A stretch of 64,000 nt of DNA from Pseudopedobacter saltans DSM 12145. Its GTDB lineage: Bacteria > Bacteroidota > Bacteroidia > Sphingobacteriales > Sphingobacteriaceae. A program made the translations under genes and the position numbers. The stretch's first letter is position 1; every line of letters starts with the position of its first letter. Below, piece after piece: positions 30,522 to 54,898 of the stretch. Below the pieces are notes generated by a model that saw only the letters and a program-made list of their open reading frames with translations, was not told where the DNA came from and made no database searches. The stretch is taken from assembly GCF_000190735.1 (NCBI RefSeq), contig NC_015177.1, positions 2,976,001 through 3,040,000 on the forward strand, read 5' to 3'.

Positions 30522-30528
30522 CGGTTTA

Positions 30529-37475: not shown

Positions 37476-38444
37476 CTATTTTGATACAGCGGTAAATGTT
37501 TCCATTTTAACTCCACGGTCACGCATTACCAAAGTATCTGTTGAAGTGATATTTCTGGTTGGCAAATCTATCTGATAATTGAGATATAGGGCATCACGAT
37601 CTTTGGCCCCCCAACTGTTCTTTTCTCCTTTTGTCACAAATTTTCCACTACCAGTAGCAGTAAACGTATTGTCACCATTTGTGATGGCACAATTCCCATT
37701 TCCATCAAAAGTTAATAATAGTTTACAGTTGATATTTTGGTTATTTTCGTCTTTAAAAACGACTGGAAATTCTGCTACTGTCAATGAAGCTGTTTTTAAA
37801 GACGAAATCTCGTCTTCTTCTACATACTGTTTATGACGAATAATTGTTTTATTCAGAGCTGTATTACCACCTTTTCCTACAACAACGTCTTTACCTCTTC
37901 TTAAATAATTACCATGCCATTTGTTAATGTATTTAATAGCATAAAGGGTATAGTCTTTTCCAGATAAAATAGAATCAGCATTATTTACATTAACCATTTT
38001 TAGAGGTATAACGTAAGTGTTTTTTAAAGATAATGGATCTGCGAAAAATGCATCTGTCAATTGCACTTGAACGCCACCAGTAATTTTACCTTTTGGGATA
38101 ACTATTTTGTCTGATGCCAGGCTGTAATAACTAGCTGGCATAGGAATAATATCGCCTCCCGAATTAAACGCCTTATTTACGGCAATGCTATTATCAACCT
38201 GAATGCCCACAGTTACATCTTTTTTATTCTGGTAGACGCCTCCCATAGTTGCTATGATCTCGCATTTGTGTTCGTTATCCAATGAGGTATCAAAAACGTC
38301 CTCTCCCAGCGTAATGGTTCTAACTGGCCCCTGATAAGCAAAATAAACGGACTGATGCTCAAAATCATCAAATTCCCAATCACCGTTTTTACAGGAACCT
38401 AAACACACTACTCCAGCTAATAACATCAATATTCTTTTTTTCAT
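37476..38444 (-). CDS. DUF1735/DUF4361 surface glycan-binding lipoprotein (XusE-like)
   Basis: 322 aa. Lipobox CLGSC (Cys 18). The N-terminal part (residues 30-160) fits DUF1735 (QSVYFAYQGPVRTITLGEDVFDTS, KDVTVGIQVDNSIAVNKAFN, MPASYYSLASDKIVIPKGKITGGVQVQLTDAFF), and the C-terminal part fits DUF4361 (WHGNYLRRG, KTASLTVAEFPVVFKDENN, DALYLNYQIDL). Proteins of this kind sit between SusD and the GH10 gene in the known Xus cluster and are thought to bind xylan at the surface. Binding has not been shown here. Confidence 0.85.
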   Translation of the reverse strand: MKKRILMLLAGVVCLGSCKNGDWEFDDFEHQSVYFAYQGPVRTITLGEDVFDTSLDNEHKCEIIATMGGVYQNKKDVTVGIQVDNSIAVNKAFNSGGDIIPMPASYYSLASDKIVIPKGKITGGVQVQLTDAFFADPLSLKNTYVIPLKMVNVNNADSILSGKDYTLYAIKYINKWHGNYLRRGKDVVVGKGGNTALNKTIIRHKQYVEEDEISSLKTASLTVAEFPVVFKDENNQNINCKLLLTFDGNGNCAITNGDNTFTATGSGKFVTKGEKNSWGAKDRDALYLNYQIDLPTRNITSTDTLVMRDRGVKMETFTAVSK

Positions 38445-38473: not shown

Positions 38474-40228
38474 TTATTGCCACCCGTTATTCTGTATTAA
38501 ATTGTTATATTTCAAGGTCTCGCTATAAGGAATTGGACCATAAATCATATGGCTTTGATAAACCCTGTTTTCTACATCAATGATGGAGTAGTTTCCATTT
38601 GAAATACTTACACCCTTAGCAGTTTCATTTAGGTTAGCATTCCACCTGCGTAAATCCCAAAAACGAAATCCTTCAAAACATAATTCCAATCTTCTTTCAT
38701 TTCTAATCAGCTTTCTCATCGCATCTTTGTCATTCTTAATAGACTCTAAGTATGGATCTCCATTAGAAACACCTACTCCAGCTCTGGTGCGTATAGCTTT
38801 GATTACATTATATGCAGAAAAAGCATGACCGCCTGTTCCTTGAGGTCCCCAGGCTTCATTAGCAGCTTCAGCGTATGCTAAATAAATTTCGGTATACCTT
38901 ATATGCGGATTGTAGTGTTTCTGAGTAGTCGTAGAAGAGGGATTAAGATTTACATCTTGTCTTAATAATTTCTTTAAGTAATAACCTGTACGGGTAGATG
39001 TTTCCACTTTATTAAGTCCGTCGTTAGTAGTACTATTAACGGTAGTGTTTATTACTGTATTTGAAGTTCCTGCTGTGCTTCCATTTACCAAAACATATAG
39101 TTTTAAACGAGGATCCCTATTATCATAAGGAGCTAGTGCATTATAACCGCTATTGGTGAGATCAGAAATAGGATAACCATTAGCCATTGGGAAAGCATCT
39201 ACCAAATTCTGACTTGGATTTAGACGGCCGCTACCATTTAAGGTTGGCGGAAAATGGTCTCTCTCAAGGCTGTTATTTGTAGCCACATCACCGCGCCAAA
39301 GAATTTCAGATGGATTAACCCCTGCTCCTAAACCATCAATTCCGCCAGTTGCATTGTACCAAACTAAATCCTTATCAGTTAAATTGGTTAACCCCCCCCG
39401 AAGATTGATGACTTCTGCAGCATAATTTGCAGCATTTGTCCATTTAGTTACATCTCCCTTGTTAAAAGCTGGACTTGCCGCCAGCAAAGCGGCCTTTACT
39501 CTAATTCCTTTTGCAATCCTAGCCGTCATACGACCTATAAAACTTGCTCCAAAAACCCTATGATAATCATCTGCATTTATTCCTGCATATTTTGCGGGAA
39601 CAGGCGAGCTGTCTGAATAATCTAAAGGAAGCAATTCTTCTGCCTTTACCAGATCCGCATATAACTGTTGCAAACAAGCATCAAAGGTTGCTCTTGGCTG
39701 GTTAAAATCGGAGTTCACCGTTTCATGTTGTAATAGAAGAGGTACACCCAATAATTCGCCGTTGATACCCTGACCTCCATGATGTTGAAGCAAATAAAAC
39801 ATATACAAAGCTCTAAGACCATAGGCTTCGCCTTTCATACGATCATTAAACATCCTACTGATAGTTGGATCTACCGCCCATTTAACGCTATCGCTTACTG
39901 CAAAGAACTGATTCAGGTACTGAATCGCCGAGCGGCTATTTCTCCATTGGTCAACCGGGTTGTTCATTGATGTCCACTGCCCGGTTGCCATTTTTAAAAA
40001 GCCGCTGTTTATATTATTGGTTACCGCATCATCCGTTGCTACATCATTAAATGACCACGAGTTTGTTGGAATTCTTGTATATCCATTCAGCAATAGTCCC
40101 TGAGCATAGGTTGCATTAGTATATGCGTTTTCCAGTTCAAGGTTGTTTTCTATAGCCGGTTCAAACATATCTTTGCAACCGCTGAATAACAACATTGCTG
40201 ATAAACAGGTTAATAATACTTTTCTCAT
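38474..40228 (-). CDS. SusD-family glycan-binding lipoprotein (second pair, XusD-like)
   Basis: 584 aa. Lipobox LFSGC (Cys 19), then the SusD/RagB helical TPR-like body (LRALYMFYLLQHHGG, RFNDRMKGEAYG, GIRVKAALLAASPAFNKGD) and the C-terminal signature LIRNERRLELCFEGFRFWDLRRW. Sits as a lid on the partner SusC barrel. 30 bp after its SusC gene and 29 bp before the DUF1735 gene. The codons for LRGGL contain a run of eight G (complement of 39392-39399), unusual for this AT-rich genome. Confidence 0.94.
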   Translation of the reverse strand: MRKVLLTCLSAMLLFSGCKDMFEPAIENNLELENAYTNATYAQGLLLNGYTRIPTNSWSFNDVATDDAVTNNINSGFLKMATGQWTSMNNPVDQWRNSRSAIQYLNQFFAVSDSVKWAVDPTISRMFNDRMKGEAYGLRALYMFYLLQHHGGQGINGELLGVPLLLQHETVNSDFNQPRATFDACLQQLYADLVKAEELLPLDYSDSSPVPAKYAGINADDYHRVFGASFIGRMTARIAKGIRVKAALLAASPAFNKGDVTKWTNAANYAAEVINLRGGLTNLTDKDLVWYNATGGIDGLGAGVNPSEILWRGDVATNNSLERDHFPPTLNGSGRLNPSQNLVDAFPMANGYPISDLTNSGYNALAPYDNRDPRLKLYVLVNGSTAGTSNTVINTTVNSTTNDGLNKVETSTRTGYYLKKLLRQDVNLNPSSTTTQKHYNPHIRYTEIYLAYAEAANEAWGPQGTGGHAFSAYNVIKAIRTRAGVGVSNGDPYLESIKNDKDAMRKLIRNERRLELCFEGFRFWDLRRWNANLNETAKGVSISNGNYSIIDVENRVYQSHMIYGPIPYSETLKYNNLIQNNGWQ

Positions 40229-40257: not shown

Positions 40258-43158
40258 TTAGAATAACGCCTTTAAGCCTAGATTATAGAATCTGGTTTGA
40301 GGACTTAAACCTATGTTCATCTCTAAAATCTCCCTCTCTTCAGCGATTGTTAGTAAATTAAATCCATTAACATAAGCTCCCAGCTCTCGTATGAAACCCT
40401 TACCTAACATTTTAGTAGGGAACTGGTAAGACAACTGTACCTTAGCTAAATCGAAGCGGTTAGTATTGTAAAGCCAAAAATCAGAATTACGATAATTGTT
40501 ATCACTTGTACCGGTAGTTAACCTCGGAAAAGTAGCTGTATCTTTTGTCTCTTCAGTCCAACGATCTCTAACAACTATAGAATATTTGTCTTGCCCGTCT
40601 ACCCAGAAATAAGAGCTATTCTTAATAGCTTTCGCTCCAAAACGCCCTGTGGCTAAAGCAAAAACGGTGAAGTTTTTCCATTTAGCTGTTAAATTTACAC
40701 CGAGTGTCAACGGTGCTCCATACCAACCGGCTCTTCCCAGATAAATTTCATCACGCGAATCGATTATACCATCTCCGTTTTGATCTTTGTATTTAAGATC
40801 GCCTGGTTTAATTTCGCCAAAAGCGGATTGGTCTGGTGAATTGGCTATATCATTACCATCCATAAAGAAGCCCTCGTTCTGCAGTCCGAAGATCGCATCA
40901 ATTGGTCTTCCTGATCTGTATTGGTAATCATATTCAAACTGACTATCAGACGCCCTGATCTTAGCTTCAGTTCTATAGTAGGTCCCGTTGAATCCCAATC
41001 TCCAGGCAACTTCTCCTAACTTTCTATTGAAATTCAAGCTAAAATCAAAACCTTTACGTGAGTCGCTATCATAATTTACATAAGGAATATCCGAGTAAAC
41101 CGGCCAACCTGTAGAGAAATAAATTGGAAAAAGAGCACCTGGCTGTACAATATTTCCTTTAGTTTCACTAAAGAAAGCGTTTGCACTTAAGTCGATTAAA
41201 TTCTTAAAAAATGAACCTTCCAAACCAAAACTAATCTCTCTCCTTTGAGGGAAAGCCATATCAAAATTGTTCCCTCTTCTTCTATCGAAACTGTGCACTA
41301 ACTGTCCGTCTTTCCAGCTGTACCATGCTGCATCATTATAAGTGTAATACCCCTGGTATAAATAATAACCAGTAATATCTAAATCTGTATTTAATATACC
41401 TGCAGACGCGGTAAGTTTAAGATTATCTATGGCATCCACATCTTTTAAGAAATTTTCCTGGCTTATTCTCCATCCCAAACTTAATGTTGGAGAAAAAGCG
41501 GTCCGTTTTCCTTCGGGTAATCTGGTTGAGTAGACGTAGGCACTACTAAAATCTGCATAATATTTTTGATTAAAGTTATATCCGAAGTTTAGTCCCAGAT
41601 TAGTATTGTTATTTTTTTGATAAATTTGAGATTCACCTATTTGGAACGCGTATCCTAATAACGAGCCGGAAACATTATGAACCTTATTAAAGGTTCTGTT
41701 ATAAGCAAGTTGACCGGAAAACGCCAGATTCTGACGGTAATAACTATTACTTATATTTTCTACGCCTGACTTAGAATCATCGCCATATTTAATCAGGTTA
41801 CTGATTTGATCGAAACCCGCATAGTTATTCCAATTTGCCTGATATGTTGCGTAATTATTATTAAATGACTGTGTAAACGAGGTCAAATAATCTATAGCCA
41901 GATTGGTTTTAAATGCCAGACCCTGGGTTATTCCTTTTAAATCAAAATCAACCCCCGTATTAAACTGAAACTGTCTGTTAATATTTTTATTTGATCCGCC
42001 GGCATAAATACTCGCAAACACATTGGTTTGATCTAACTGCGTTCCACCTAATAAATACTGTCCATTTATGATGTAATTACTATTGTTTACATAAATCATG
42101 GACGGGTCGTCTCCTTCTTCTATCATACTTATTGGAATTAGCGGAGAAAAACGGTTTGGACGTACGGTAGCGGCACTACCCCAAAAATCGGCATTAACTC
42201 CCCTCCCGGTATAGAAACTTGCCGATGCATCAACATTTAACTTAATAATATTATTCAGCCTCATATTAATATTTCCACGCAGGTTGAACCTGTTTGCGCC
42301 TCTGCTTTTTGTTGCTTCACCAAAATTCAGGAGGGCATCATTAGTCCAAAAACCCATATTGGTATAATATTGTGCTTTCTCATTTCCTCCAGATATCTCA
42401 GTAGTTACATCGTAACGATTGTAACTATCTTTTAGATAGTCAGATGAATAGAAGTTAATATTGGGATAGCGAAAAGGGTTTAATCCAGCTCCATAATTAT
42501 AAATTTCACTCTCTGTGTATAAATTAGCTAAGCCATCATTTCTCCGGGCCTCATTATACAAAGTCATATACTCTGCTGACCCCAAATATTGCGGGTAAAC
42601 TTTTGGAACGTTAATACCTGCATTTGCCCTAACATTAACTTTTTGATCGTAGTTACCACCGCGTTTCGTAGTAATATAAACTACACCTTTTGCAGCCTTA
42701 CTTCCATACAATGCCACGGCACCTACTCCTTTCATCACTGTAATTTGATCTATTTCTGTAGGCATGATATTGTTTGCATCTCTTGGAAATCCATCAACCA
42801 AAACTAAATAGCTGCTATTTCCCCAGATGTTACCATGAAAACCAGATGTTAAAGCTTCCAGATTTTCTAAACTGTATGTTGCATAATTATTCTCCATAAG
42901 CTCAGAAAAATTCAAAACGGATACTCCACCAAGTAAATCTTCTTTTTTCACCTTCCTGAAAGCTACTTGTACCAGAGAATCTGAATCATTTCCCTTTAGT
43001 ATAGAATCTTGTGTTAATATGTTATTAGGGGAAATGCCCGCATTTGTTTTATGATTACTTGATATTTTGTCTTTATTAAAAGCAGCTTTTGCCGAACTCA
43101 CACCGTACAATCCACTTGTAACGGTAAGGCATATTGCAATTCCTATAATTCGCTTCAT
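40258..43158 (-). CDS. SusC-family TonB-dependent transporter, short form (second pair, XusC-like)
   Basis: 966 aa. Signal peptide ends near SSAKA (residue 25). Unlike the first SusC, it lacks the carboxypeptidase-regulatory beta domain (no GxVxD..G.PL.GVxVxVKGT motif); a short linker with LVQVAFRKVKKEDLLGGVSVLN leads straight to the plug (residues 75-175, SSYLVLVDGFPRDANNIMPTEIDQITVMKG, ALYGSKAAKGVVYITTKRGG). The barrel ends FYNLGLKALF. Short SusC forms like this do occur. It would import xylo-oligosaccharides together with the SusD protein encoded 30 bp downstream. Confidence 0.92.
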   Translation of the reverse strand: MKRIIGIAICLTVTSGLYGVSSAKAAFNKDKISSNHKTNAGISPNNILTQDSILKGNDSDSLVQVAFRKVKKEDLLGGVSVLNFSELMENNYATYSLENLEALTSGFHGNIWGNSSYLVLVDGFPRDANNIMPTEIDQITVMKGVGAVALYGSKAAKGVVYITTKRGGNYDQKVNVRANAGINVPKVYPQYLGSAEYMTLYNEARRNDGLANLYTESEIYNYGAGLNPFRYPNINFYSSDYLKDSYNRYDVTTEISGGNEKAQYYTNMGFWTNDALLNFGEATKSRGANRFNLRGNINMRLNNIIKLNVDASASFYTGRGVNADFWGSAATVRPNRFSPLIPISMIEEGDDPSMIYVNNSNYIINGQYLLGGTQLDQTNVFASIYAGGSNKNINRQFQFNTGVDFDLKGITQGLAFKTNLAIDYLTSFTQSFNNNYATYQANWNNYAGFDQISNLIKYGDDSKSGVENISNSYYRQNLAFSGQLAYNRTFNKVHNVSGSLLGYAFQIGESQIYQKNNNTNLGLNFGYNFNQKYYADFSSAYVYSTRLPEGKRTAFSPTLSLGWRISQENFLKDVDAIDNLKLTASAGILNTDLDITGYYLYQGYYTYNDAAWYSWKDGQLVHSFDRRRGNNFDMAFPQRREISFGLEGSFFKNLIDLSANAFFSETKGNIVQPGALFPIYFSTGWPVYSDIPYVNYDSDSRKGFDFSLNFNRKLGEVAWRLGFNGTYYRTEAKIRASDSQFEYDYQYRSGRPIDAIFGLQNEGFFMDGNDIANSPDQSAFGEIKPGDLKYKDQNGDGIIDSRDEIYLGRAGWYGAPLTLGVNLTAKWKNFTVFALATGRFGAKAIKNSSYFWVDGQDKYSIVVRDRWTEETKDTATFPRLTTGTSDNNYRNSDFWLYNTNRFDLAKVQLSYQFPTKMLGKGFIRELGAYVNGFNLLTIAEEREILEMNIGLSPQTRFYNLGLKALF

Positions 43159-43186: not shown

Positions 43187-45073
43187 TTACCATCCGGGAT
43201 TTTGTGAAAATTCCGCATACATATTCACATCTACGTTTTTAAGAGGTAGCCAATAATGTTTATTTGTGTAATTCCTTTGAACTATTACCACCTCGCGTAA
43301 ATTTGCCACTCTATTTTCTGTAGGATCAGTGGTATTAAAAGTTCCTGATCGATCGAATTCTAACGATGTTTTTATTGTATAAGGATGTTCAGTAAGCAAC
43401 AACCATCTTCTCAAATCATTAAAGCGATGACCTTCAAAAGCAAGCTCAACAGCTCTTTCGCGTCGCAATTCGCTTAAGAAATTGTCAACAGATCCGAGGA
43501 ATTTTGTGTTTACAGGATCTACTCCCGCCCTATTCCTGATAATGTTTACAGATTCTACTGCAGTTTTGCTAAAATTTGGGTCTTTTCCTTGAGGGCTATT
43601 ATATCCCATAAGTGCTGCTTCTGCGTACATTAAATAAACGTCCGCTAAACGCATATAGGGAACATAAATATGAAGGCTATAACCCCAACTGTAAGCGTTA
43701 TCGTATTTATTTGCTGTAATAGGAATGAATTTGCGGAGAACATAACCCGTACGGCTACCTGTGCTAACATTTCTATAGCTACCTCCAGTATATAAATTGG
43801 CATATCTATTTGGCTGTTCATCCACATTTGGAATTGCTCCCTGGACAAATTTCACTCCGTCGAATACTATATCATTGTAAAAACGGGGGTCTCTGTTTTT
43901 CCAAGGGTATGTGGGATCGTAACCTGATGCAGCATCTGGCTTGGTAATATCAGGAATAGGTAGTCCGTTCTTCATGCCATAATAGCTGACATAATTAGAA
44001 GTAGGGACAAATTTCAAGTCGCCTTCAGATACAATTACTGGTGTGTATTGCTTACTGGTTCCCCAGTTAGAGTCGTTTGCGCTATTAAAAGGTCCGCGAA
44101 ATATAGCTTCAGTACTACCAGGAAGTGCCCAGCCCTCACCCGTTGTATAAAAATTCTTATAATAATCAGCAAATGACACCAAACTATATTGAGTAGAACC
44201 ACCCTCGACAAGCTTTAACAACTCGCCAAACGCCGCGGCTGCCTTTTTACAATACTCAACATTATAAGTTTTGCTGCCTGTAGATTCGTAGTTCATTAAT
44301 GGACTGCCTGCCCATAAATAGTTTTTGCCTAAATATGCCAGCGCCATTATCTTATTTATTCTCAGCTGATTTTTTCCAAGCGTTCTTCTACCAGGTTCAG
44401 TATTATCCCAATTGATGGGTAACAAATCAGCAGCAGCTCTAAAGTCTGCTGCAGCCTTGTCAGCACATTCATGGTATTTTAAACGTGGTAAGCGAATTTC
44501 TCCGGCGCTAGGTAAGACGTAATCAATATAAGGCAGTCCTCCAAAATACTCCATTAAGCGATGGTGAAACCATGCTCTAAAAAACAATAACTGACCTCTT
44601 ATTATATTTTTCTCTTCAGTAGTCGCATCTGTCATTAAATCCATATTGGCTAAACCAATATTTGCTTTTCTAATCCCATACCAGGCGGCATTCCAGAGAT
44701 CCTTATTAAAACGTCCGTTTACAGTGGAGAAATTAGATTTATCCATCCATCCAGAGCCCCATCCATCAAATTGTGATTGCCAACCCCAAAAATTGCCATC
44801 ATCTATTTTATGAATGTAGTGGTAATTTCCTGCGGTAGAGGTTATTTCATCCTCTCCCCAATTCCATGAGTTGGTCCAATAATTATTGGTGAAGTTTACT
44901 ATACAATTATACAATTCTTCGGTAAAGCCCTGAAAATTCACAAAGTTCTTAAAAGCTTCCTTTTCGGAAATATTCGTTTGTTCATCTTTATCCAGGTATT
45001 TCTCGCAAGCGGAGAGGCTTATACATCCCCACACTATCAAACAAGACACAATGGTTTTTATATGCTTTTTCAT
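43187..45073 (-). CDS. SusD-family glycan-binding lipoprotein (first pair, XusB-like)
   Basis: 628 aa. Lipobox LSAC (Cys 23) followed by EKYLDKDEQ. Typical SusD body (LLFFRAWFHHRLMEYFGGLPYIDYVL, KIMALAYLGKNYLWAGSPLMNYES) and the C-terminal signature LRRERAVELAFEGHRFNDLRRW. The N-terminal region is rich in Trp (WTNSWNWGEDE, NFWGWQSQFDGWGSGWM), suitable for stacking on sugar rings. 17 bp upstream lies its SusC partner; 28 bp downstream the second SusC starts. All Xus genes are closely spaced and on one strand, so one operon. Confidence 0.95.
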   Translation of the reverse strand: MKKHIKTIVSCLIVWGCISLSACEKYLDKDEQTNISEKEAFKNFVNFQGFTEELYNCIVNFTNNYWTNSWNWGEDEITSTAGNYHYIHKIDDGNFWGWQSQFDGWGSGWMDKSNFSTVNGRFNKDLWNAAWYGIRKANIGLANMDLMTDATTEEKNIIRGQLLFFRAWFHHRLMEYFGGLPYIDYVLPSAGEIRLPRLKYHECADKAAADFRAAADLLPINWDNTEPGRRTLGKNQLRINKIMALAYLGKNYLWAGSPLMNYESTGSKTYNVEYCKKAAAAFGELLKLVEGGSTQYSLVSFADYYKNFYTTGEGWALPGSTEAIFRGPFNSANDSNWGTSKQYTPVIVSEGDLKFVPTSNYVSYYGMKNGLPIPDITKPDAASGYDPTYPWKNRDPRFYNDIVFDGVKFVQGAIPNVDEQPNRYANLYTGGSYRNVSTGSRTGYVLRKFIPITANKYDNAYSWGYSLHIYVPYMRLADVYLMYAEAALMGYNSPQGKDPNFSKTAVESVNIIRNRAGVDPVNTKFLGSVDNFLSELRRERAVELAFEGHRFNDLRRWLLLTEHPYTIKTSLEFDRSGTFNTTDPTENRVANLREVVIVQRNYTNKHYWLPLKNVDVNMYAEFSQNPGW

Positions 45074-45089
45074 CTGTTTATTTTTATTT

Positions 45090-48000
45090 TTAGAAGATGA
45101 TATTGGTTCCTAGATTAAAACGCTTCACGGTTGGATAGGCTCCTTGAGATGCCCAACCTGTTCCGGCAAAGTTGGATTCCCTATCATCAGGCATTTTTGT
45201 CCATACTGCCAAATTATTACCATTCATAAAAATTCTGAGGCTTTCTATACCAATACGTTTAATAAAACTTGTGTTTTTTTGAAAAGTATAAGCTATCTCA
45301 GCATTCTTCAAGCGGATATATGATCCATCGAACATATATCTATTGCCCGGGCTGTAATTACTTGGAGTCGACAACCATCTTGGCAAAGGCACATCTGCAT
45401 TTATATCGTCCTTAGACCAATAAGTCCCTTCATTATAAACCAGCTGATTTTGCCCTGACAGACTATTGAAAACCACCTGACGAGTAACATTAGTTACACC
45501 ATAAACCTGAACAAATGCGCTGAACCCTTTCCAATCAAAACCTAATATTGCATTGAAAGTATGCTGGGGATTAGAAGGGAATCCGAAAGGAATATTGTCC
45601 TTTGAATCTATTATTCCATCTGCATTATAATCAAGTATATGATAGTTTCCCGGTAATTTTTGACCATCACCATTATCTGTAACAGTACTTCCATAAAGCT
45701 CATCCCAGGTATTATAATAACCGGCTCCAACATATGAATAGGTTTGACCAATTTGTTTATTTTGCCTTTTTTGGTACTCAGGTAATAACTGAGCATCATC
45801 GGCATCTAAAACCTTGTCCTTAGCTCTGGTATAGTTCACATTCCCCCACACTCTCCAGTCTGCATTCAGCTTTTTGTCTATAGCTATTTCTAATTCGAAG
45901 CCTTTATTCTCTACTTCGCCTAAATTGGCCGCAGGTGCAACTGCTCCAAAATAAGAAGGTATAGCCCTATTTGTTAATATTATATCTGACCGTTTATCTC
46001 TGAAATAATCAAACTTACCGGAAATAAAACCTCTTAGAAAACTGAAGTCTAACCCAACGTTGATTTTCCTCACTTTTTCCCAGCGTATGTCCGGATTTCC
46101 AAGAGTACTTTCTTTATACCATGTATAAGGACTTAACTCTGAATCTACTCCCGTTACCCCTAATTTTGTTTTATCTCCATAAGTCCATTGAGTAAGGTAT
46201 AACCAACGGGGTCCTGAGCTATCATCTCCTATCTCTCCGTAAGAACCTCTAATCTTTAAATTGTCAATAAAGGTTAAGGGTTTCATAAAATTCTCGTTGG
46301 ACATAGTCCAACCTAAACCGCCAGACTGAAAGAAAGCAAAACGATAGCCCGGACCAAATTTAGAAGAGCCATTGTAGCTTCCATTATATTCTACGATATA
46401 TTTATTTGCATAATTGTAAGTAGTTCTAAAAACCCAATCTTCACGATTAAAAGGAATTTCACTTCCTGTAGCAACTTGATTACGATTGAACAAGCCCATT
46501 GCTGTAATCGTATGTTTATCCGCTAGGGTAGTATTGTAATCCAGCTTCGCTTGATAAAAAAGACGACGATAAGTAGCCCAATTTTGAACAGATCCCGGAC
46601 TAACAGCCCAATTGATACTATTTTGAAAATCAAATCGATTAGTAGCATCGTAAGCTATTTGATACACAGTTTTTCCTGTTTTAGGATCAATCCATTTACT
46701 CTGAACATCATTATATAAATCATTCACCCCTCTGTTTCCTTCAACGAAGGTATTGTCTAAGGCCACTGTTCCTACAGCACTCAACCCCTTTACTAAACGA
46801 CTTAAATCCTGATTTAAAGTAAAATCAGTAGTTATACGATTTGTAGTTGTATAGGAAACACCACTCATGGCCAGAATTCTGGCAGAGTTTAGTCCTCTTT
46901 GCACATTAGGAGCATGATATCCCCATGTACCGTCAGAATATTGTGGCATAAACACGTTAGGAGCTGTCGAGTAAGCTGATATCCAATAATTATAATCTCC
47001 ATTATTGGCTCCCCACGGCATTTTTTTCACTCCTCTTGAACCCGCAACGTTAGCTTTTAGGCTAGTGGATTTGGTTAGTTGAAAGTCCAGATTGCTTCTC
47101 ATATTCAACCTATTGAAACCATAACCTGGTTCGTAACCTCTATTATTTTCAAACGTTCTGAATAAATCACCTTCGTACAGGTAATCTGCACTAGCAAAAT
47201 ATTTCACCTTTTCGGTACCACCCGAAATATTCAGGTTGGCATTATGAGACATTGCATAATCTTTGAATAACACCTCATCCCAGTTTACATTTGGATAACG
47301 TTCTGATTCTGCCAAATCAGCAGGAAAACGATACTTATCTATAATGGCTTGGGGAAGAATATCATTCCAACTTTCAGGACGCAGTGCAAGTTCATATTCA
47401 ATAACCTCATTACGAATTCTTAAAGCGTCGTAAGCGTCATACTTTCCCGGCAACTTTGAAGGTACCTTAGCGACATTATTTATTGTTCCGCGAATAGATG
47501 CCCGCCCTTCTTTACCGCGTTTAGTAGTAATCAAGATCACACCATTTGCACCTCTAACTCCGAATACGGCAGTTGCAGAAGCATCTTTTAATATAGAAAC
47601 AGATTCTACCGATCCGATATCTACACTATTCATAGGGCGTTCGATACCATCTACCAATATTAAAGGGCTGGTATTATTCATTGTACTTCTTCCGCGGATT
47701 ATAATTTGCGGATCCTCTTCTCCAGGCATACCTGTACTGGCAGAAGTTACGACACCAGGAACATTACCTGTAAGCGCAGCCCCAATACTCGACACACCCC
47801 CTGCTCTCTCCAATACCTTTCCTGTTGTCTGTGTAACTGCAGCAACTATACTCTCCCTTTTTTGCGTACCGTAACCAACTACCACCACCTCACTCAGTTG
47901 TGCCATATCATCTTGCAGTACAACTTTTATTTCAGTTTTTCCCCTTACATCTATTTCCTGGCTTACCATCCCTATATATGCAAAGGACAGTATATATTTA

Positions 48001-48233
48001 TCCGCGGGAAGGTCTATGGAGAACTGTCCATCTATATTGGTCATAGAGTTAATTGAGGTTCCTTTAACAGAAACAGAAACTCCTATAAGGGGGATATTCT
48101 TGACATCATGTACAGTCCCTCTGACTATCCGCTTTTGTTGCCCTAAAACCCCTTTAGCTAAAAGAGAGAGCGCTAGAATAGCAAAATAAAACTTACGGTA
48201 TATCCCTATGCTTACTTTTTGTTTTTTTTTCAT
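45090..48233 (-). CDS. SusC-family TonB-dependent transporter (first pair, XusA-like)
   Basis: 1047 aa, canonical SusC. Signal peptide to VLGQ (residue 32), carboxypeptidase-regulatory beta domain at 37-112 (IVRGTVHDVKNIPLIGVSVSVKGT, SIDLPADKYILSFAYIGM), TonB-box region EVVVVGYGTQKRES, plug at 125-240 (GRSTMNNTSPLILVDGIERPM, SILKDASATAVFGVRGANGVILITTKRG), then the 22-strand barrel to LGTNIIF. First gene of the Xus operon. Codons 2-4 form a run of nine A directly after the ATG. The leader is about 350 nt from the putative operator. Confidence 0.96.
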   Translation of the reverse strand: MKKKQKVSIGIYRKFYFAILALSLLAKGVLGQQKRIVRGTVHDVKNIPLIGVSVSVKGTSINSMTNIDGQFSIDLPADKYILSFAYIGMVSQEIDVRGKTEIKVVLQDDMAQLSEVVVVGYGTQKRESIVAAVTQTTGKVLERAGGVSSIGAALTGNVPGVVTSASTGMPGEEDPQIIIRGRSTMNNTSPLILVDGIERPMNSVDIGSVESVSILKDASATAVFGVRGANGVILITTKRGKEGRASIRGTINNVAKVPSKLPGKYDAYDALRIRNEVIEYELALRPESWNDILPQAIIDKYRFPADLAESERYPNVNWDEVLFKDYAMSHNANLNISGGTEKVKYFASADYLYEGDLFRTFENNRGYEPGYGFNRLNMRSNLDFQLTKSTSLKANVAGSRGVKKMPWGANNGDYNYWISAYSTAPNVFMPQYSDGTWGYHAPNVQRGLNSARILAMSGVSYTTTNRITTDFTLNQDLSRLVKGLSAVGTVALDNTFVEGNRGVNDLYNDVQSKWIDPKTGKTVYQIAYDATNRFDFQNSINWAVSPGSVQNWATYRRLFYQAKLDYNTTLADKHTITAMGLFNRNQVATGSEIPFNREDWVFRTTYNYANKYIVEYNGSYNGSSKFGPGYRFAFFQSGGLGWTMSNENFMKPLTFIDNLKIRGSYGEIGDDSSGPRWLYLTQWTYGDKTKLGVTGVDSELSPYTWYKESTLGNPDIRWEKVRKINVGLDFSFLRGFISGKFDYFRDKRSDIILTNRAIPSYFGAVAPAANLGEVENKGFELEIAIDKKLNADWRVWGNVNYTRAKDKVLDADDAQLLPEYQKRQNKQIGQTYSYVGAGYYNTWDELYGSTVTDNGDGQKLPGNYHILDYNADGIIDSKDNIPFGFPSNPQHTFNAILGFDWKGFSAFVQVYGVTNVTRQVVFNSLSGQNQLVYNEGTYWSKDDINADVPLPRWLSTPSNYSPGNRYMFDGSYIRLKNAEIAYTFQKNTSFIKRIGIESLRIFMNGNNLAVWTKMPDDRESNFAGTGWASQGAYPTVKRFNLGTNIIF

Positions 48234-48590
48234 TTATTAAAAAATAATTAGGATTTAGAAAATTGTTCTTCACTTATCATTATCTGAGAATAGCTTTTAA
48301 TCATAGTATTATTTGTCGATCATAATATTGTTGGATAAATAAGAGATAAGCGGGCCATCGCCTGTCTTTAAGTTCATTTGCCGTTAAGTTGGTGCTTTCA
48401 TTTATACATTTGGTTTAGTTGGTTTATAACTCCAGTTTATATATCTAAATAATATTTGAGATCAATGCAATCGGTTGCTTTAATTCACCAAAACAACTTA
48501 ATTCCCCAATCTGTAATTTTATCAGCTATAGAAACCGGCTTATAATTAAGCTCTAAACTAAACCTGAGTCGGATTTATAGATAGCACATT
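48234..48590 (-). other. Leader region of the Xus operon
   Basis: AT-rich noncoding DNA upstream of the first SusC. A long-range inverted repeat, TTAAGTTGGTG (48384-48394) with CACC and AACTTAA (48486-48489, 48495-48501), could structure the leader. I find no clean TTG-N19-TAnnTTTG promoter; the best -7 match is TAGTTTTG on the minus strand at 48595-48602, which overlaps the operator candidate and lacks a -33 box. Confidence 0.45.
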
Positions 48591-48620
48591 TGTCCAAAAC
48601 TATAGACTACATGTTCAAGA
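48591..48620 (-). promoter_or_regulatory. Candidate HTCS operator upstream of the Xus operon
   Basis: Two half-sites, TGTCCAAAA (48591-48599) and TGTTCAAGA (48612-48620), in direct repeat exactly 21 bp apart (two helical turns). The same pair with the same spacing occurs upstream of the HTCS gene at 52964-52993. AraC-type DNA-binding domains, as in the HTCS, usually recognise such spaced direct repeats. Confidence 0.5.
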
Positions 48621-48725
48621 CGTTGTTTAGTGTGAGTAAAAGTGGTATTTAGGTTATAAAATGAAGATGTAAAAAGTCGTTATCACATATTAATCTAAAT
48701 ATGTTACCAGTTAATCGAAATTATT

Positions 48726-51700
48726 TTAAACATTGTCATTCCTATCCTGCCTTTTTAGCATCATGTATTCTGACGGGAGCATATTATATTTTACTTTAAA
48801 GGCTCTTGCAAAATAATTTGGAGTAGCAAAGCCCACCGAATAACATATTTGTGATACGTTCATATCACTTTTTTCTAAAAGCAATGCGGCCCGTTCTAAT
48901 TTTAGCCTTCTAATGTACTCTACAGGAGTCTGTCCTGTAAGATTTAAAACCTTAGTATAAAGAGAGCCCCTGCTCATTGCTAAATACTTACTAAGATCCT
49001 CTACGGATAATTGAGAATTAGTAAGATTATCTTCTATATATTGCACTATTTTACTCAAAAGTTTCTCATTGTCAGACTCTATGGCAACCTCTCCCAAAGT
49101 TAAGTTAACTCTATTACCATAGGTGGTCTTAAGATTATTATTGAGTGTAAGAAGATTTCTAATTTTGATATTCAATATGTCAAAATTAAATGGCTTTGAC
49201 ATATAATCATTTGCCCCGGTTTCTAATCCGCTTAACTCATCCTCTTCCCCCGTAAGAGCGGTTAATAATAAAACAGGAATATGCTTCGTTCTTTTGTCTG
49301 CCCTGATTTTTTTACAGAGATCCATTCCACTGAGATAAGGCATACTTACATCCGTTATTACAATATCAGGATGTGAAGATAGAGCTTTTTGCCAGCCTTC
49401 TTTTCCATCGCAAGCCTCTATAACTCTGTAGCTTTTTGTTAAGTTATCTTTTAGATAAGATCTAAAATCTTCATTATCTTCGACTAATAACACAAGTGGC
49501 AATTCACTTTTGTCCAATGTAGGCAGTCCAACTAACTCATCTTCAACATCATTATTGAATGATTCATTAAAAATTACCGCATCATCTTCCAATATTAGTC
49601 TGTCTTCTATTTTTTGCAATGGCAAAAATATTGAAAAGGTGGTTCCTTCGCCACTCACACTTTCCACTTCAATATTCCCATTATGCATCTTAACAAACTC
49701 TTTTACAATTGATAAACCTATACCGCTACCTTGATTGAGTATAGCATCGTTATTATCACTCTGAAAAAATCTATCAAATATTTTCGCTTTCGCATTTTCC
49801 TGAATACCGATACCTGTATCGATTATCTTAACGACTACCCCTGTCTTTTCAAATAAATCTATTTGGAATGAAATCGTTCCACTTTTCAAAGTGAATTTGA
49901 AGGCATTGGACAAAATATTGAAAAAAATTCTTTCCAACTTATCATGATCAAAAGAAGTGAAATAAAACTTTATATTGCTCCTAAACTCAAAATTGATAGC
50001 TTTTCGTTCTGCCAGGTCTTTAAAAGATTCAGCTACATCTTTAGCAAAAGCAATAAAATCCCCCTCTTCTAAATTTAGCTTTTGTTCCTCCTGCTTTATA
50101 TTTCTAAAATCTAATAATTGATTTACTAAGTTGAGTAAGCGCTTAGAATTTCTTCGCACCATATTTAATTGGGCCCACTTCTCTTTATTATTTTCTTGCT
50201 GCAATAACTGTTCTATCGGGCCAACTATCAGCGAAATAGGCGTACGAAACTCATGACTTATATTAGTAAGAAATTTAATTTTTAATTGATCAAATTTATG
50301 GATTCGATCCGCCTCGCGCCTTTCCTCAGCTAGAAGTTGCTGCACCTTAATTCTTTCTTGTTCTATTGCAAATTTCGCTTCTAACTTTTTTATTCCCCTG
50401 TACCTCATATACCATAGTCCAATAACTACGATCAGGAAATAACCTACATAAGCATATATGCTAAGCCATATAGGCGGATGAATTTTTATTACTATGGATG
50501 TTAAAGGCGTACTCCATTCTCCCGCATCGCTTTTTGCTTTAACTTTGAATATATATTCTCCAGGAGTTACATTGGTATAAACCGCTGTATTTTCCATACC
50601 AACATTATTCCATTCTTTATCAAAACCTTCTAATTTATAGAAGTAACGGTTTTCTTGTGGCGATGTATAATTCAAGGCGGCAAAACTTAAAGAAAAATTC
50701 TGCTTATAATCCAGATTAACTTCTTTAGCTATGGAAATATGTTCCTGAAGTTGTCCTGCCTGACCAGGTACTACACTTTGATTGGCGACCTTTAAATCAG
50801 TAAGTATTACATTTGGAATATTTTTATTCTGAAATAGCTTAGACGGATTGAAGTAATTGAATCCGTCTGTACCTCCAAAGAAAATCCTGCCATCCCATAG
50901 TTTCAGGCCAGAACCATATACAAATGGACTTTTTTGTACTCCGTTATTACTGGAATAGTTCTTAAACGCTCTGACTTTGGGATCAAAACTGCTGATTCCT
51001 TTGTTTGTACTTAACCATAATTTACCATTATCGTCTTCTAAAATCTTATATATGACGTCGTTAGCAAGCCCTTCATGTTCTGAATAAACGACAAATTTAT
51101 CAGTTTTAACATCATACTTAACTAGTCCGGAATTCGCCAATCCCAGCCAAATAGATCCGTCTTTTGTACATAGGATAGTATATATATTATCATTTGGCAA
51201 ATTACTGTTAATTCTATTAAATGTTTTGGAATATCCATTTACCGGATTATAGACCGCCACGCCACTTCCACATGAACCGACCCAAATATTCCCATTCCTA
51301 TCTTCTTCAATAGCTCTTATAAATCCATTAAGCTGGATTTCTTTCGGTTCGGCTCCATATTTAAGAAATACATTCTTTTCCGAATCGTAGCGATTAAGGC
51401 CCTGTCCATTAGTTCCAATCCAAATATTCCCTCTAGAATCCTTTTTTATACAAAAAATATCTGAGCCACTGATATTTTCCTTTCCATTTCCTTTTTTTAT
51501 TTGTCTACTTTTCCCCGTATTGATATTATACACAAACAGACCATGCAAAAAAGTCCCTATCCATACTTCATCTTTTACTTTCTCCATAGACAAAATAGAC
51601 AGCCCATCCGATTTTATTTGATCAGAGACTTGTATTTTATGAAAAGTCCCCTCTTCCATATCAAATAAATTAAGTCCACCACCGTCGGTTCCTACATAAA

Positions 51701-52817
51701 CCATTTTATCTGATTTTTGTACGAACGAAGTGACTACCGGAGCGCTTAACCCCAATGGATCATAAACATTACTCTGTACCAGGTTAAAAAAAGCTAAATT
51801 CTTGTCATATTTATTTACACCTCCTCTAAATGTTGCCAGCCAGTAAATACCTTGTTTATCTATCATGATAGACTTTATCGCTTTGCCAACCAAGCCATAA
51901 TTATTCCGCCCCCCTTTATTTACTCTGGTTATTTTATCACTTCTTACATTGTAAATATTCAGGCCTTCTTCCGTTCCAATCCATATATTGCCACAGGGTT
52001 CCACAGCCAGAGAATAAATCATATTAGAACTAAGCGACTGGATATCCCCGGGATTAGAAACATAATTATGAAATGTCATATCTTTTACGTTCAGCCTGCT
52101 CAGTCCGTTATTTGTGCCTAACCATATATTTCCTTGATTATCTTCACAAATAGCACTTACTGCATCGTTAATAAGACTATTAGAATTATTTGGCAATTTT
52201 TTAAAATGTGAAACGGCACCTTTATTTGGTCCATAACGATAAACTCCTGTATTAGTTCCGATCCAAATATTTCCGGATCTATCTTTAAACAATTTATTTA
52301 CCGATTTCGTTGCTATTGTCTGATCAATATTCCTTCCTAAACCTGGAGAAGTAAATTCTCCTGTATGAGGGTTAAGCACTTCGAGTCCCTGATAACCACC
52401 CACCCAAATAGCTCCGGTATTGTCACTGCAGGTAGATAGCACAGGAAAGTTTTTTCCTTTTAGATAACTGATAAAAGAGTCTAAATTTCTGTTGTAAAGA
52501 GTCAGCCCTCCAGATGTAGATACCCACAAATTACCAGATTTGTCTTCATACAAATCCAATACCTCATTGGAGACTATATTTGAAGCATTTTTTCGATATA
52601 TCGTGAAGTTTTTCCCGTCATATTTATTAAGACCATCATCTGTTGCAAACCATATGAATCCATAACGATCTTTGTGAATACTATTTACAATATTTGACGA
52701 AAGCCCATTCTTAGTACTTAAATTCATAAAATTTAAGTCTTTTTCATCGGCTTTAACGGTTAGGATACTTCCTAATGTGAAAATACAAATAAGTGAGAGT
52801 GTAAAAACCCTAATCAT
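48726..52817 (-). CDS. Hybrid two-component system regulator (HTCS) of the xylan locus
   Basis: 1363 aa, all parts of a two-component system in one chain. Signal peptide (1-23); periplasmic sensor of about 14 propeller-type repeats with the motif GNIWxGT/S..G (residues 28-690); Y_Y_Y domain (about 695-780, GFDKEW); transmembrane helix (783-805); histidine kinase with H855 in NISHEFRTP, the N-box NILSNAFKFT, DTGIGI and GSGIGLSI; receiver domain with phosphoacceptor D1156 (VITDVSMP) and Lys in YMSKPF; C-terminal AraC-type helix-turn-helix (1260-1360, VSQICYSVGFATPNYFARAFK). Family members bind oligosaccharides in the periplasm and activate the neighbouring utilisation genes. Placed between the Xus operon and the GH cassette; likely autoregulated through the operator at 52964. 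Confidence 0.96.
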   Translation of the reverse strand: MIRVFTLSLICIFTLGSILTVKADEKDLNFMNLSTKNGLSSNIVNSIHKDRYGFIWFATDDGLNKYDGKNFTIYRKNASNIVSNEVLDLYEDKSGNLWVSTSGGLTLYNRNLDSFISYLKGKNFPVLSTCSDNTGAIWVGGYQGLEVLNPHTGEFTSPGLGRNIDQTIATKSVNKLFKDRSGNIWIGTNTGVYRYGPNKGAVSHFKKLPNNSNSLINDAVSAICEDNQGNIWLGTNNGLSRLNVKDMTFHNYVSNPGDIQSLSSNMIYSLAVEPCGNIWIGTEEGLNIYNVRSDKITRVNKGGRNNYGLVGKAIKSIMIDKQGIYWLATFRGGVNKYDKNLAFFNLVQSNVYDPLGLSAPVVTSFVQKSDKMVYVGTDGGGLNLFDMEEGTFHKIQVSDQIKSDGLSILSMEKVKDEVWIGTFLHGLFVYNINTGKSRQIKKGNGKENISGSDIFCIKKDSRGNIWIGTNGQGLNRYDSEKNVFLKYGAEPKEIQLNGFIRAIEEDRNGNIWVGSCGSGVAVYNPVNGYSKTFNRINSNLPNDNIYTILCTKDGSIWLGLANSGLVKYDVKTDKFVVYSEHEGLANDVIYKILEDDNGKLWLSTNKGISSFDPKVRAFKNYSSNNGVQKSPFVYGSGLKLWDGRIFFGGTDGFNYFNPSKLFQNKNIPNVILTDLKVANQSVVPGQAGQLQEHISIAKEVNLDYKQNFSLSFAALNYTSPQENRYFYKLEGFDKEWNNVGMENTAVYTNVTPGEYIFKVKAKSDAGEWSTPLTSIVIKIHPPIWLSIYAYVGYFLIVVIGLWYMRYRGIKKLEAKFAIEQERIKVQQLLAEERREADRIHKFDQLKIKFLTNISHEFRTPISLIVGPIEQLLQQENNKEKWAQLNMVRRNSKRLLNLVNQLLDFRNIKQEEQKLNLEEGDFIAFAKDVAESFKDLAERKAINFEFRSNIKFYFTSFDHDKLERIFFNILSNAFKFTLKSGTISFQIDLFEKTGVVVKIIDTGIGIQENAKAKIFDRFFQSDNNDAILNQGSGIGLSIVKEFVKMHNGNIEVESVSGEGTTFSIFLPLQKIEDRLILEDDAVIFNESFNNDVEDELVGLPTLDKSELPLVLLVEDNEDFRSYLKDNLTKSYRVIEACDGKEGWQKALSSHPDIVITDVSMPYLSGMDLCKKIRADKRTKHIPVLLLTALTGEEDELSGLETGANDYMSKPFNFDILNIKIRNLLTLNNNLKTTYGNRVNLTLGEVAIESDNEKLLSKIVQYIEDNLTNSQLSVEDLSKYLAMSRGSLYTKVLNLTGQTPVEYIRRLKLERAALLLEKSDMNVSQICYSVGFATPNYFARAFKVKYNMLPSEYMMLKRQDRNDNV

Positions 52818-52860
52818 ATATCAAACCTTTTATTTGGATACAATGCCATTAGACTCTTTG

Positions 52861-52904
52861 ATCAATTGTTGTAAATAAATTACAACCTGTTGTTTATAAT
52901 TGAT
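52861..52904. promoter_or_regulatory. Nested inverted repeat upstream of the HTCS gene
   Basis: Inner perfect arms GTTGTAA (52868-52874) and TTACAAC (52880-52886), outer arms ATCAATT (52861-52867) and AATTGAT (52898-52904). It lies 44-87 bp before the HTCS start, in the expected promoter zone. Possible operator or leader hairpin. Confidence 0.35.
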
Positions 52905-52963
52905 ACTATTTCCTGGTTAAATATATAAAGCTACTATTATAAATGGTCTTTGACTGTTCTTTT

Positions 52964-52993
52964 TGTTCAAAATAACGAAACAAATGTTCAAAA
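52964..52993 (-). promoter_or_regulatory. Candidate HTCS operator upstream of its own gene
   Basis: TGTTCAAAA at 52964-52972 and again at 52985-52993, exactly 21 bp apart, 147-176 bp before the HTCS start. 20 of 30 positions equal the site upstream of the first SusC, with the identities concentrated in the two 9-bp half-sites. It also contains the ACAAATGT core. Confidence 0.5.
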
Positions 52994-53329
52994 CAAAAAA
53001 GCAGAGCCGATCCAAAGACCGCCCTGCCTTTAATAATAAACCAATTAAAGAACTTTATGAAATCTGCCAATTACGAGACAAACGTTCTTTACAAGTACAA
53101 TATCCGATAACTTCCCTATTTTAAGGGGTAATTTTCGATAGAAAGATAGAACAAATGTCATTCTATAAAATCGGGATAAAAGATGGTTACATAACTCACA
53201 CTGCAACCTGGTTTTCCCTTTAAAAAAGCTATGTCTCCATCTTCCATAATTTAGAATATATTAACGCTGTACTCGACGACTCCTTTATAGTCATTGCTGT
53301 CAATAATAACTTAATATATTTTGTTATTT
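52994..53329. other. Noncoding interval after the GH43 gene
   Basis: About 335 bp without a coding frame. It contains GAACAAATGTCA at 53149-53160, a third copy of the ACAAATGT core near the regulator. I find no clear terminator hairpin for the upstream GH cassette. Confidence 0.5.
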
Positions 53330-54898
53330 CTATTGCTTAATATTAAAAAAGTCAAAATCGGCATAGCCTCCTGTATATTTTGTAGAATAGCTAAATAATC
53401 CAAAACGATAGCCCATGAAATGAGGTATTGTATAAGCCATTTTTAGCTGAGTACCAATAGGCTGCCAGTTCTTTCCATCCAAACTATAGAAAAAGTTAGC
53501 AATATCTTTTTTATTAGTAAAATCACATTCGGCCTTAAGAAAGACTTTCTTTCCGCTAAAAGGTATTCGGGCTGCCTCTTGGGGAGTCCCAGTAGTGGCA
53601 TTTTCCATAACCAGGTATTTTTTCCCTTCTATCATTTTAACTCCTACCAATCCATAATTTTTTTGCAATAGAGACAGTCCAGCAAAATCACCGTCTTTCA
53701 TTCCCGACACATCTACAGCTGTAGATCCGGAACATGTTGGACCTATTGTGCGCTGGGTTAGGGTATTTCGAGCCTGTAAAAAGCTACTATCTATACATCC
53801 GGTTTGTAATCTCAGGTAACCTTTTCTTTTGGTTACAGACCAAAGACTATTATCTGGGTTATGATTCCACTGCCATACTAAAGGTAAATTTGGTTCACCT
53901 TTTTTCCTTGAAAAATCGTCTGAATTTACGATATGGGGAATCAAACTTTTGTTGGCCGGAAGATTTAAGGTATAAGGAACCTTGCCATCGACACCTAATA
54001 CAGGCCAACCATCTTCCCATTTTACCGGGACTAAAAACGGAATACGTCCAACTGCACCATAATCCTGAAATAAATAGGCATACCATTTTCCATCAGGCAT
54101 ATCTATCAATCCTCCTTGTGCAACACCTTTATCTTGAAGAACAACGCGTCCTTCATAAGGTCCATCTATCTTATCTGAGCGATGTACGATTACAGTACGC
54201 ATACCTCCGGGAGGCCAAGAAATATTAAACAGGTAATATTTCCCATTTATTTTAAATAATTGCGACCCTTCGGCCGGAAGTCCTCCACGAACTCCTTCGG
54301 GTGTACTGGGTAAAGTTGCATTTTCAATAAGTACACGTTGAGTTTCGGGTTTAATACCTGATAAATCTGGCTGCAATTCTACAATATTTAACTTTCCGCC
54401 ACCCCATATCATATAGACCTTCTCGCCTTCAAAAAACAAGGTATGATCATGCATCATAGGTTTAAATTCTTTAACTTCCCATGGACCTTTTTCTATGTCT
54501 TTTGTAGTAAAGATGTAAGTTTTTCCAGTGGTCTGAGCGAATGTACTTACATAATAGGTTCCATTGTGATAACGCATACTGCTTGCCCATGATCCTCGTC
54601 CGTAAGTATTTTTTCCATTCGCCAAATTAAGCTCATCCATGTTTGCTAACGTATCATAAGCATAACCTATCAGTTCCCAATTAACCAAATCTTTTGATTT
54701 CATAATCGGTACCCCGGGATTCATATGCATAGTGGTGCTACTCATATAGTAATTTTCTCCAACCCTTATCATTGACATATCCGGGACATCCGCAAAAATA
54801 ATGGGATTGTGAGCACTCATTGGCTCCGAAGATTGAGCTTTTAAGAAAAAGGCAATAAACAAAATGGTCAAAACCATTAAACTAAATTTTAACTTCAT
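53330..54898 (-). CDS. GH43 family beta-xylosidase/alpha-arabinofuranosidase with C-terminal beta-sandwich
   Basis: 522 aa, secreted (signal to FLKAQ, residue 22). The five-bladed propeller (30-325) has the three acidic residues of GH43: Asp in IIFADVPDMSMIRV, Asp in MMHDHTLFFEGEKVYMIWGGG, and Glu in GLPAEGSQLFKINGKYYL. Residues 335-522 form the C-terminal concanavalin-like beta-sandwich common in two-domain GH43 enzymes (AVDVSGMKDGDFAGLSLLQ, YRFGLFSYSTKYTGGYADFDFF). The pattern recalls subfamily 12, arabinofuranosidase type, but the exact activity is not decided by sequence. Last gene of the GH cassette, 40 bp after the preceding GH43 gene. Confidence 0.9.
   Translation of the reverse strand: MKLKFSLMVLTILFIAFFLKAQSSEPMSAHNPIIFADVPDMSMIRVGENYYMSSTTMHMNPGVPIMKSKDLVNWELIGYAYDTLANMDELNLANGKNTYGRGSWASSMRYHNGTYYVSTFAQTTGKTYIFTTKDIEKGPWEVKEFKPMMHDHTLFFEGEKVYMIWGGGKLNIVELQPDLSGIKPETQRVLIENATLPSTPEGVRGGLPAEGSQLFKINGKYYLFNISWPPGGMRTVIVHRSDKIDGPYEGRVVLQDKGVAQGGLIDMPDGKWYAYLFQDYGAVGRIPFLVPVKWEDGWPVLGVDGKVPYTLNLPANKSLIPHIVNSDDFSRKKGEPNLPLVWQWNHNPDNSLWSVTKRKGYLRLQTGCIDSSFLQARNTLTQRTIGPTCSGSTAVDVSGMKDGDFAGLSLLQKNYGLVGVKMIEGKKYLVMENATTGTPQEAARIPFSGKKVFLKAECDFTNKKDIANFFYSLDGKNWQPIGTQLKMAYTIPHFMGYRFGLFSYSTKYTGGYADFDFFNIKQ

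Follow-up and report, generated by a model that had tools for sequence, protein, structure and literature searches.

The gene for an HTCS in a xylan-type PUL of Pseudopedobacter saltans lies between two similar direct repeats, one in the gap towards susC and the other upstream of the HTCS gene itself, which raises the question of what protein uses these repeats and which genes it controls through them. Judging from sequence comparison, we consider it very probable that the two repeats (sites A and B) are operators of the HTCS encoded at 48726-52817, through which it would activate its own gene and the susCD operon, as it would also activate GH3-GH10 genes outside the window. The window is the whole stretch of 64,000 nucleotides that was analyzed (positions 2976001-3040000 of a one-contig genome of 4,635,236 bases), and coordinates refer to it unless the genome or another locus is named. 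Its features, in the direction of transcription, are as follows:

52964-52993, minus strand: site B, a direct repeat of the form TTTTGAACA-N12-TTTTGAACA in front of the HTCS gene, predicted to be autoregulatory; 29.2 bits with profile R1 (described below)
52926-52933, minus strand: TAGCTTTA, a predicted -7 box for the HTCS gene, 30 nt past the end of site B
48726-52817, minus strand: HTCS with Reg_prop propellers, Y_Y_Y, HisKA, HATPase_c, receiver and AraC-type HTH_18; predicted activator
48591-48620, minus strand: site A, a direct repeat of the form TCTTGAACA-N12-TTTTGGACA between the HTCS gene and susC, directed towards susC; 27.8 bits with profile R1
48553-48560, minus strand: TAGTTTAG, a predicted -7 box for susC that differs from TAnnTTTG by one letter, 30 nt past site A
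48234-48552, minus strand: predicted susC 5' leader (~315 nt) with an AACCAA-type start-like signal and very short ORFs
45090-48233, minus strand: susC-like TonB-dependent receptor (TIGR04056, 770.7 bits), predicted first gene of the target operon
43187-45073, minus strand: susD-like lipoprotein of the target operon (SusD_RagB)
40258-43158, minus strand: second susC-like receptor (Plug; TIGR04056 above its cut-off at 3016267-3018822 of the genome)
38474-40228, minus strand: second susD-like lipoprotein (SusD_RagB)
37476-38444, minus strand: DUF5627/BT_3987-like protein of the operon
35287-37452, minus strand: GH10 protein, probably a xylanase, that carries a CBM_4_9 domain

HTCS, susC, susD, susC, susD, the DUF5627 protein and the GH10 protein follow one another in this order on the minus strand, the two susC/susD pairs with a GH10 protein and an HTCS forming the gene set of a Xus-type PUL. 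The HTCS has sensor, histidine kinase, receiver and HTH in one chain, all above the Pfam cut-offs (Reg_prop 179.8 bits, Y_Y_Y 65.5, HisKA 46.3, HATPase_c 94, Response_reg 81.3, and HTH_18 70), and its gene adjoins susC/susD-like genes, as is characteristic of the class. On its 5' side lie GH43, GH31, GH97, GH95, esterase, and other hydrolase genes and, farther out, GH10 and GH3; because the genes around the HTCS are of xylan type, xylan is its presumed ligand. The 4.6-Mb genome encodes 54 SusC-type receptors above the family cut-off. The xylan cluster also contains a TonB-dependent receptor followed by two DUF4249 proteins (29373-34430). The preliminary description had seen no repeat pair upstream of this operon, and indeed neither the half-site pattern nor profile R1 has a match in front of it, although the operon could still be transcribed by read-through from the susC promoter since only small gaps separate it from the upstream GH10 gene.

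Both sites described earlier, with their repeat period of 21 bp, are present (site A at 48591-48620, TGTCCAAAACTATAGACTACATGTTCAAGA; site B at 52964-52993, TGTTCAAAATAACGAAACAAATGTTCAAAA), and they agree at 20 of 30 positions, mostly within the half-sites. Because all genes here are on the minus strand, the functional orientation is the reverse complement of the plus-strand pattern, TYTTGRACA-N12-TYTTGRACA, with 357 nt between site A and the ATG of susC and 146 nt between site B and the ATG of the HTCS gene. The plus-strand form, TGTYCAARA-N12-TGTYCAARA, occurs without mismatch only twice in the 4.64-Mb genome, at sites A and B, and two further matches have one mismatch; since the pattern was derived from these same sites, its rarity alone proves little. 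With up to 3 mismatches, the window has 4 matches (one, at 48612, overlapping site A) against 1.13 expected, a number reached by 2 of 100 shuffles, and the genome has 155 against 161 for a reversed-pattern control. Such looser matches are thus noise, and we rejected the loose pattern as a means of defining the regulon in favor of profile R1.

The spacing of the half-sites could be examined beside orthologous HTCS genes. We scanned spacings of 9-45 within 500 bp on each side of 30 such genes, the window excluded, and found a gene-strand TTTTGAACA pair with at most 3 mismatches in 18 at 21 bp in 10 of the 30 loci (1 of 30 on the opposite strand), as against at most 3 loci of 30 for any of the 36 other spacings and a mean of 0.145 (maximum 2) for the 21-bp pair in 200 shuffles. 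Allowing up to 4 mismatches, the 21-bp spacing appears in 13 of the 30 loci and the next best spacing in 7; in a second set of 20 loci it appears in 11 (other spacings in at most 4), or in 3 (other spacings in at most 2) when the limit is 3 mismatches. On the gene strand beside orthologous HTCS genes, 21 bp is a clear peak among these spacings. Near many close HTCS orthologues, the repeat lies in the gap after the HTCS gene, or upstream of that gene or of a hydrolase gene preceding it. Four loci share the window's arrangement (L063, L064, L065, and L072), and their repeats stop 312-361 nt short of the next ATG, compared with 357 nt in the window, the next gene being called susC-like there by size and place only. 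Conservation of the repeat before orthologous operons, as expected of HTCS operators, thus extends to many of the promoters compared, with misses: five loci with HTCS identity of 36-42% (L069, L070, L071, L073, and L075) have no gene-strand pair with up to 3 mismatches beside the HTCS, and identity sets no sharp border, since L068 (49%) is without such a pair and L072 (40%), one of the training sites of R1, has one.

Profile R1 is a sequence-only profile made from 25 sites of relatives (alignment A1) with the window's sites excluded, which makes it an independent test where the pattern, made from the window's sites, is not. The training sites were picked by hand (gene strand, non-coding according to the ORF lists, at most 5 mismatches, near-identical copies mostly dropped), leaving out, among others, opposite-strand matches at L034, L096, L097, L102, L114, and L117, gene-strand matches at L036, L095, L111, and L112, and some gene-strand matches at L034, L035, L037, L100, L102, and L113; the choice preceded our look at the -7 box, yet was not blind. 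Adding the two sites of the window gives 27 sites selected on the repeat alone, and 16 of these have TAnnTTT at an offset of 30 bp (11 sites) or 31 bp (5 sites) from the end of the repeat, while the rest of the scanned range, which extended to about 83, has 4 matches together. The 16 comprise 15 of the 25 relatives' sites and one of the two in the window, site A's imperfect -7 box falling outside the exact matches. Across the 25 sites of A1, TA..TT shows no variation in its A and its last two T, and its first T is at least 90% conserved.

In the available text of PMC7366714, a -7 TAnnTTTG and a -33 TTTG constitute the sigma-ABfr promoter of Bacteroidota. The box downstream of the repeats is the first of these elements; the sites differ in that no TTTG is evident by eye at the place expected for the -33 box, and the repeat lies just upstream of that place. 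A repeat immediately upstream of the core promoter has the position of an activator, and we read the missing -33 TTTG as a sign that the promoter depends on one. The predicted leaders would be ~100 nt for the HTCS gene and ~315 nt for susC.

In the genome that contains the window, R1 finds three strong sites, at 31.0 bits (3061903-3061973), 29.2 bits (site B), and 27.8 bits (site A), followed by a match of 15.7 bits; 150 of 5135 first-look candidates were scored, so weak sites may escape. Equally good pairs at unrelated genes, which would have spoken against the preliminary description, turn up with neither the pattern nor the profile. The third strong site (L130:11903-11973) lies 21.9 kb past the end of the window, in front of a GH3 gene and the GH10 gene that comes after it, the profile match ending 52 nt ahead of the GH3 ATG. 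All three strong sites thus belong to one xylan cluster. The regulon probably holds a fourth, weaker site at 3056110-3056172 (13.3-13.7 bits), before a 702-aa gene, which we retain as a candidate because the orthologue of that gene (71% identity) has a 30.3-bit site in genome G001. The ~700-aa protein (L130:3883-5991, minus strand, and L159:865-2967), which sits behind motif sites in these two species, has no Pfam or NCBIfam match, and it is possibly an undescribed hydrolase of the xylan regulon.

The sites co-occur with a particular clade of HTCSs. Among 18 genus genomes, each searched by scoring 150 first-look candidates, R1 reaches at least 24 bits in exactly the four that have a close HTCS orthologue (G000, G001, G007, and G013), three of which supplied training sites, and its best match in the other 14 is 21.8 bits. 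Six matches of at least 24 bits lie outside the training set, before two GH43 genes, GH95, GH10, GH8, and the gene for the 700-aa protein. Of 80 named HTCS loci, 21 have an HTCS at least 45% identical to the present one, and 13 of these show a match of at least 16 bits (8 of 16 once loci holding training sites are removed), among them loci of Chitinophaga and Niastella; none of the 59 with lower identity does, the highest score there being 11.8. A further 20 unnamed loci include 14 with such a match. In 4 of the 13 positive loci (L175, L176, L182, and L191), the sole match of at least 16 bits is upstream on the opposite strand, facing away from the HTCS gene. The 8 close loci lacking one near the HTCS (L168, L172, L174, L177, L178, L184, L185, and L241) have short flanks, but some may use another site. 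The second HTH shows a related difference: in an alignment of 25 motif-bearing HTCSs, listed by hand from a larger number and including the window and some near-duplicates, T1332 is found in 23 and N1334 in 25, whereas D/S and S/L/K are commonest at these two positions in 56 distant HTCSs; N1334 is also found in 6 of the 8 close HTCSs without an R1 match.

Of the alternatives to our reading, the one that fares best, though we hold it to be unlikely, is that only the susC and GH3 sites activate and that site B is either non-functional or repressing. In the three further genus genomes that have orthologues, no such site stands right before the HTCS gene; there the HTCS gene comes after one or two genes that bear the upstream site, namely a GH10 gene and then a 571-aa ORF in L063, a GH43 gene in L064 and L065, and in L062 a 362-aa ORF that by eye resembles the GH10 of L063. 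Autoregulation in these genomes needs read-through, and feedback on the HTCS by that route is plausible, given that its gene follows hydrolase genes bearing the site. The passages on HTCS autoregulation within reach in the literature also concern other genes, and our search, in which subscription papers, figures, and additional files were beyond reach, found no report of HTCS autoregulation. Against a silent or repressing site B stand its score, slightly above that of site A, its two perfect half-sites, and its TAGCTTTA at offset 30, as well as gene-strand pairs directly before HTCS genes elsewhere (L037, L097, L099, and L100, with 3 or 4 mismatches) and a 35.9-bit site directly upstream of the HTCS gene in L181.

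We think it very unlikely that the repeats are real operators of another DNA-binding protein, such as a global carbon or stress regulator, with the HTCS a bystander. Some close HTCS orthologues do have no site nearby, and binding by the HTCS is a prediction; but from a global regulator one would expect numerous sites scattered over the genome, whereas the three strong sites of this genome all lie in one xylan cluster around the HTCS, the 14 genus genomes without an orthologue have no match of at least 24 bits, none of the 59 more distant HTCSs has one of at least 16 bits beside it, and the spacing agrees with that predicted for HTCSs in the accessible text of PMC3878776. Chance similarity of two AT-rich gaps, which the equal abundance of pattern and reversed control at up to 3 mismatches might suggest, deserves next to no credence in view of the spacing scan, the offset of the -7 box, the genome search with R1, and the co-occurrence across the genus and the named loci.

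If sites A and B are operators of the HTCS, the pathway might run as follows. The propeller of the HTCS, presumably periplasmic, would sense a xylo-oligosaccharide and its kinase would phosphorylate the fused receiver, upon which two AraC-type DNA-binding modules would dock on the two TTTTGAACA half-sites, 21 bp or two turns apart on the same DNA face. The core promoter would follow at once, its -7 box (TAnnTTTG) usually starting 30-31 bp past the second half-site. The docked HTCS could then bring the primary sigma factor to three targets: the susCD-susCD-GH10 genes, its own gene in a positive feedback, and, outside the window, GH3-GH10. The sequences show the sites with their spacing and conservation, their usual distance to the -7 box, their rarity in the genome, and their co-occurrence with this HTCS clade; ligand, phosphorylation, binding, and the sign of regulation are what we infer. 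The earlier proposals of a two-turn AraC-type dimer, of activation of the SusC/SusD operon, and of autoregulation are compatible with what we find: the 21-bp architecture matches the one predicted for Bacteroides HTCSs in the available text of the literature, site A is directed towards susC, and a putative site is present at the HTCS promoter.

This arrangement is close to that of known systems. According to the accessible text of Ravcheev et al. 2013 (PMC3878776), direct repeats with an average distance of 21 bp were predicted for 16 Bacteroides HTCSs, and dimers on one DNA face, two turns apart, were proposed; sites A and B, direct repeats of about 21 bp upstream of PUL operons, are of this type. 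As described there, the Bacteroides thetaiotaomicron operators share with ours the direct repeat with a non-conserved spacer and a period of about 21 bp, and the location in promoters of susC-type loci adjoining the HTCS gene. Set against that text description rather than the logos, the present sites differ in belonging to other families (Sphingobacteriaceae and Chitinophagaceae) and to a xylan locus, in the half-site TTTTGAACA, in the usual 30-31 bp to the -7 box, and in the site at the HTCS gene. For susCD promoters that contain predicted sites, a 2024 mBio paper (PMC11253607) reports EMSAs with the response-regulator parts of HTCSs, and it also reports that interface substitutions relieve inhibition of binding; our sites fit the scheme of both papers as far as their text is available. 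Xylan genes are under HTCS control in Prevotella bryantii (XynR/Xus) and in Bacteroides ovatus PULs, as the accessible text of a review describes (PMC8002723), and these systems resemble the present one in their HTCS-controlled SusC/SusD-type genes, GH10 xylanase, GH43, and GH3, with two SusC/SusD-type pairs in P. bryantii xusABCD as here, a likeness in gene content. A search combining TTTGAACA with Bacteroidetes direct repeats gave no report among the matches listed, figures and additional files being outside the search. A further xylan paper (PMC12125979) concerns, in its available text, a Vibrio-type XylR regulator and not an HTCS operator, and was set aside.

The long susC leader offers a separate lead. 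AACCAA...ATG starts of short ORFs occur in all nine leaders compared (window, L063, L064, L065, L072, L097, L100, L110, and L113), 16 in all, against a mean of 0.92 and a maximum of 5 in 500 shuffles, and in four of four further leaders, in one of which (L283) the start is only 13 nt before the large ORF; in this comparison, the family test for SusC covered the window's large ORF only. The short ORFs of L063, L064, and L065 (34, 42, and 35 codons, respectively) begin 135-138 nt upstream of the susC-like ORF. No AACCAA lies within 22 nt of the start of the large ORF itself (nine contexts compared), and the AACCAA...ATG context is also found at real gene starts in this genome. A generic role for such upstream starts at all susC genes is unsupported: among 30 other susC genes, taken from the 56 susC matches in the genome and many of them with short upstream gaps, one has such a start upstream and five have it at the susC start itself. 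We likewise rejected a conserved peptide in the leader ORFs, whose coding function is doubtful: in L110, L113, L287, L288, and L290, roughly the first 12 codons of one ORF are kept with small changes and the sequences diverge after that. The window's susC leader shows no RNA structure by folding energy (z 0.26), and 48234-53330 has no Rfam match up to E 1. Because the start pattern was noticed first and tested after, and some of the loci are close relatives, we rate it as a lead; that upstream ORFs or decoy starts in the long leader add a second, translational layer to the HTCS switch is a tentative and somewhat doubtful idea.

The sites are a new example of a design already proposed for HTCSs rather than a new principle. 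Relative to the known work, taken by its description in the text available, they contribute a clade and a half-site that are new, together with the usual spacing to the -7 box and a site in front of the HTCS gene. They provide a clean, testable predicted operator for an HTCS that probably senses xylan in a bacterium other than the gut Bacteroides and suggest a geometry of two half-sites 21 bp apart with the -7 box usually 30-31 bp further. A profile trained on relatives' sites singles out a small, coherent regulon in the whole genome, which makes it practical to predict regulons for the uncharacterised HTCSs of other Bacteroidota.
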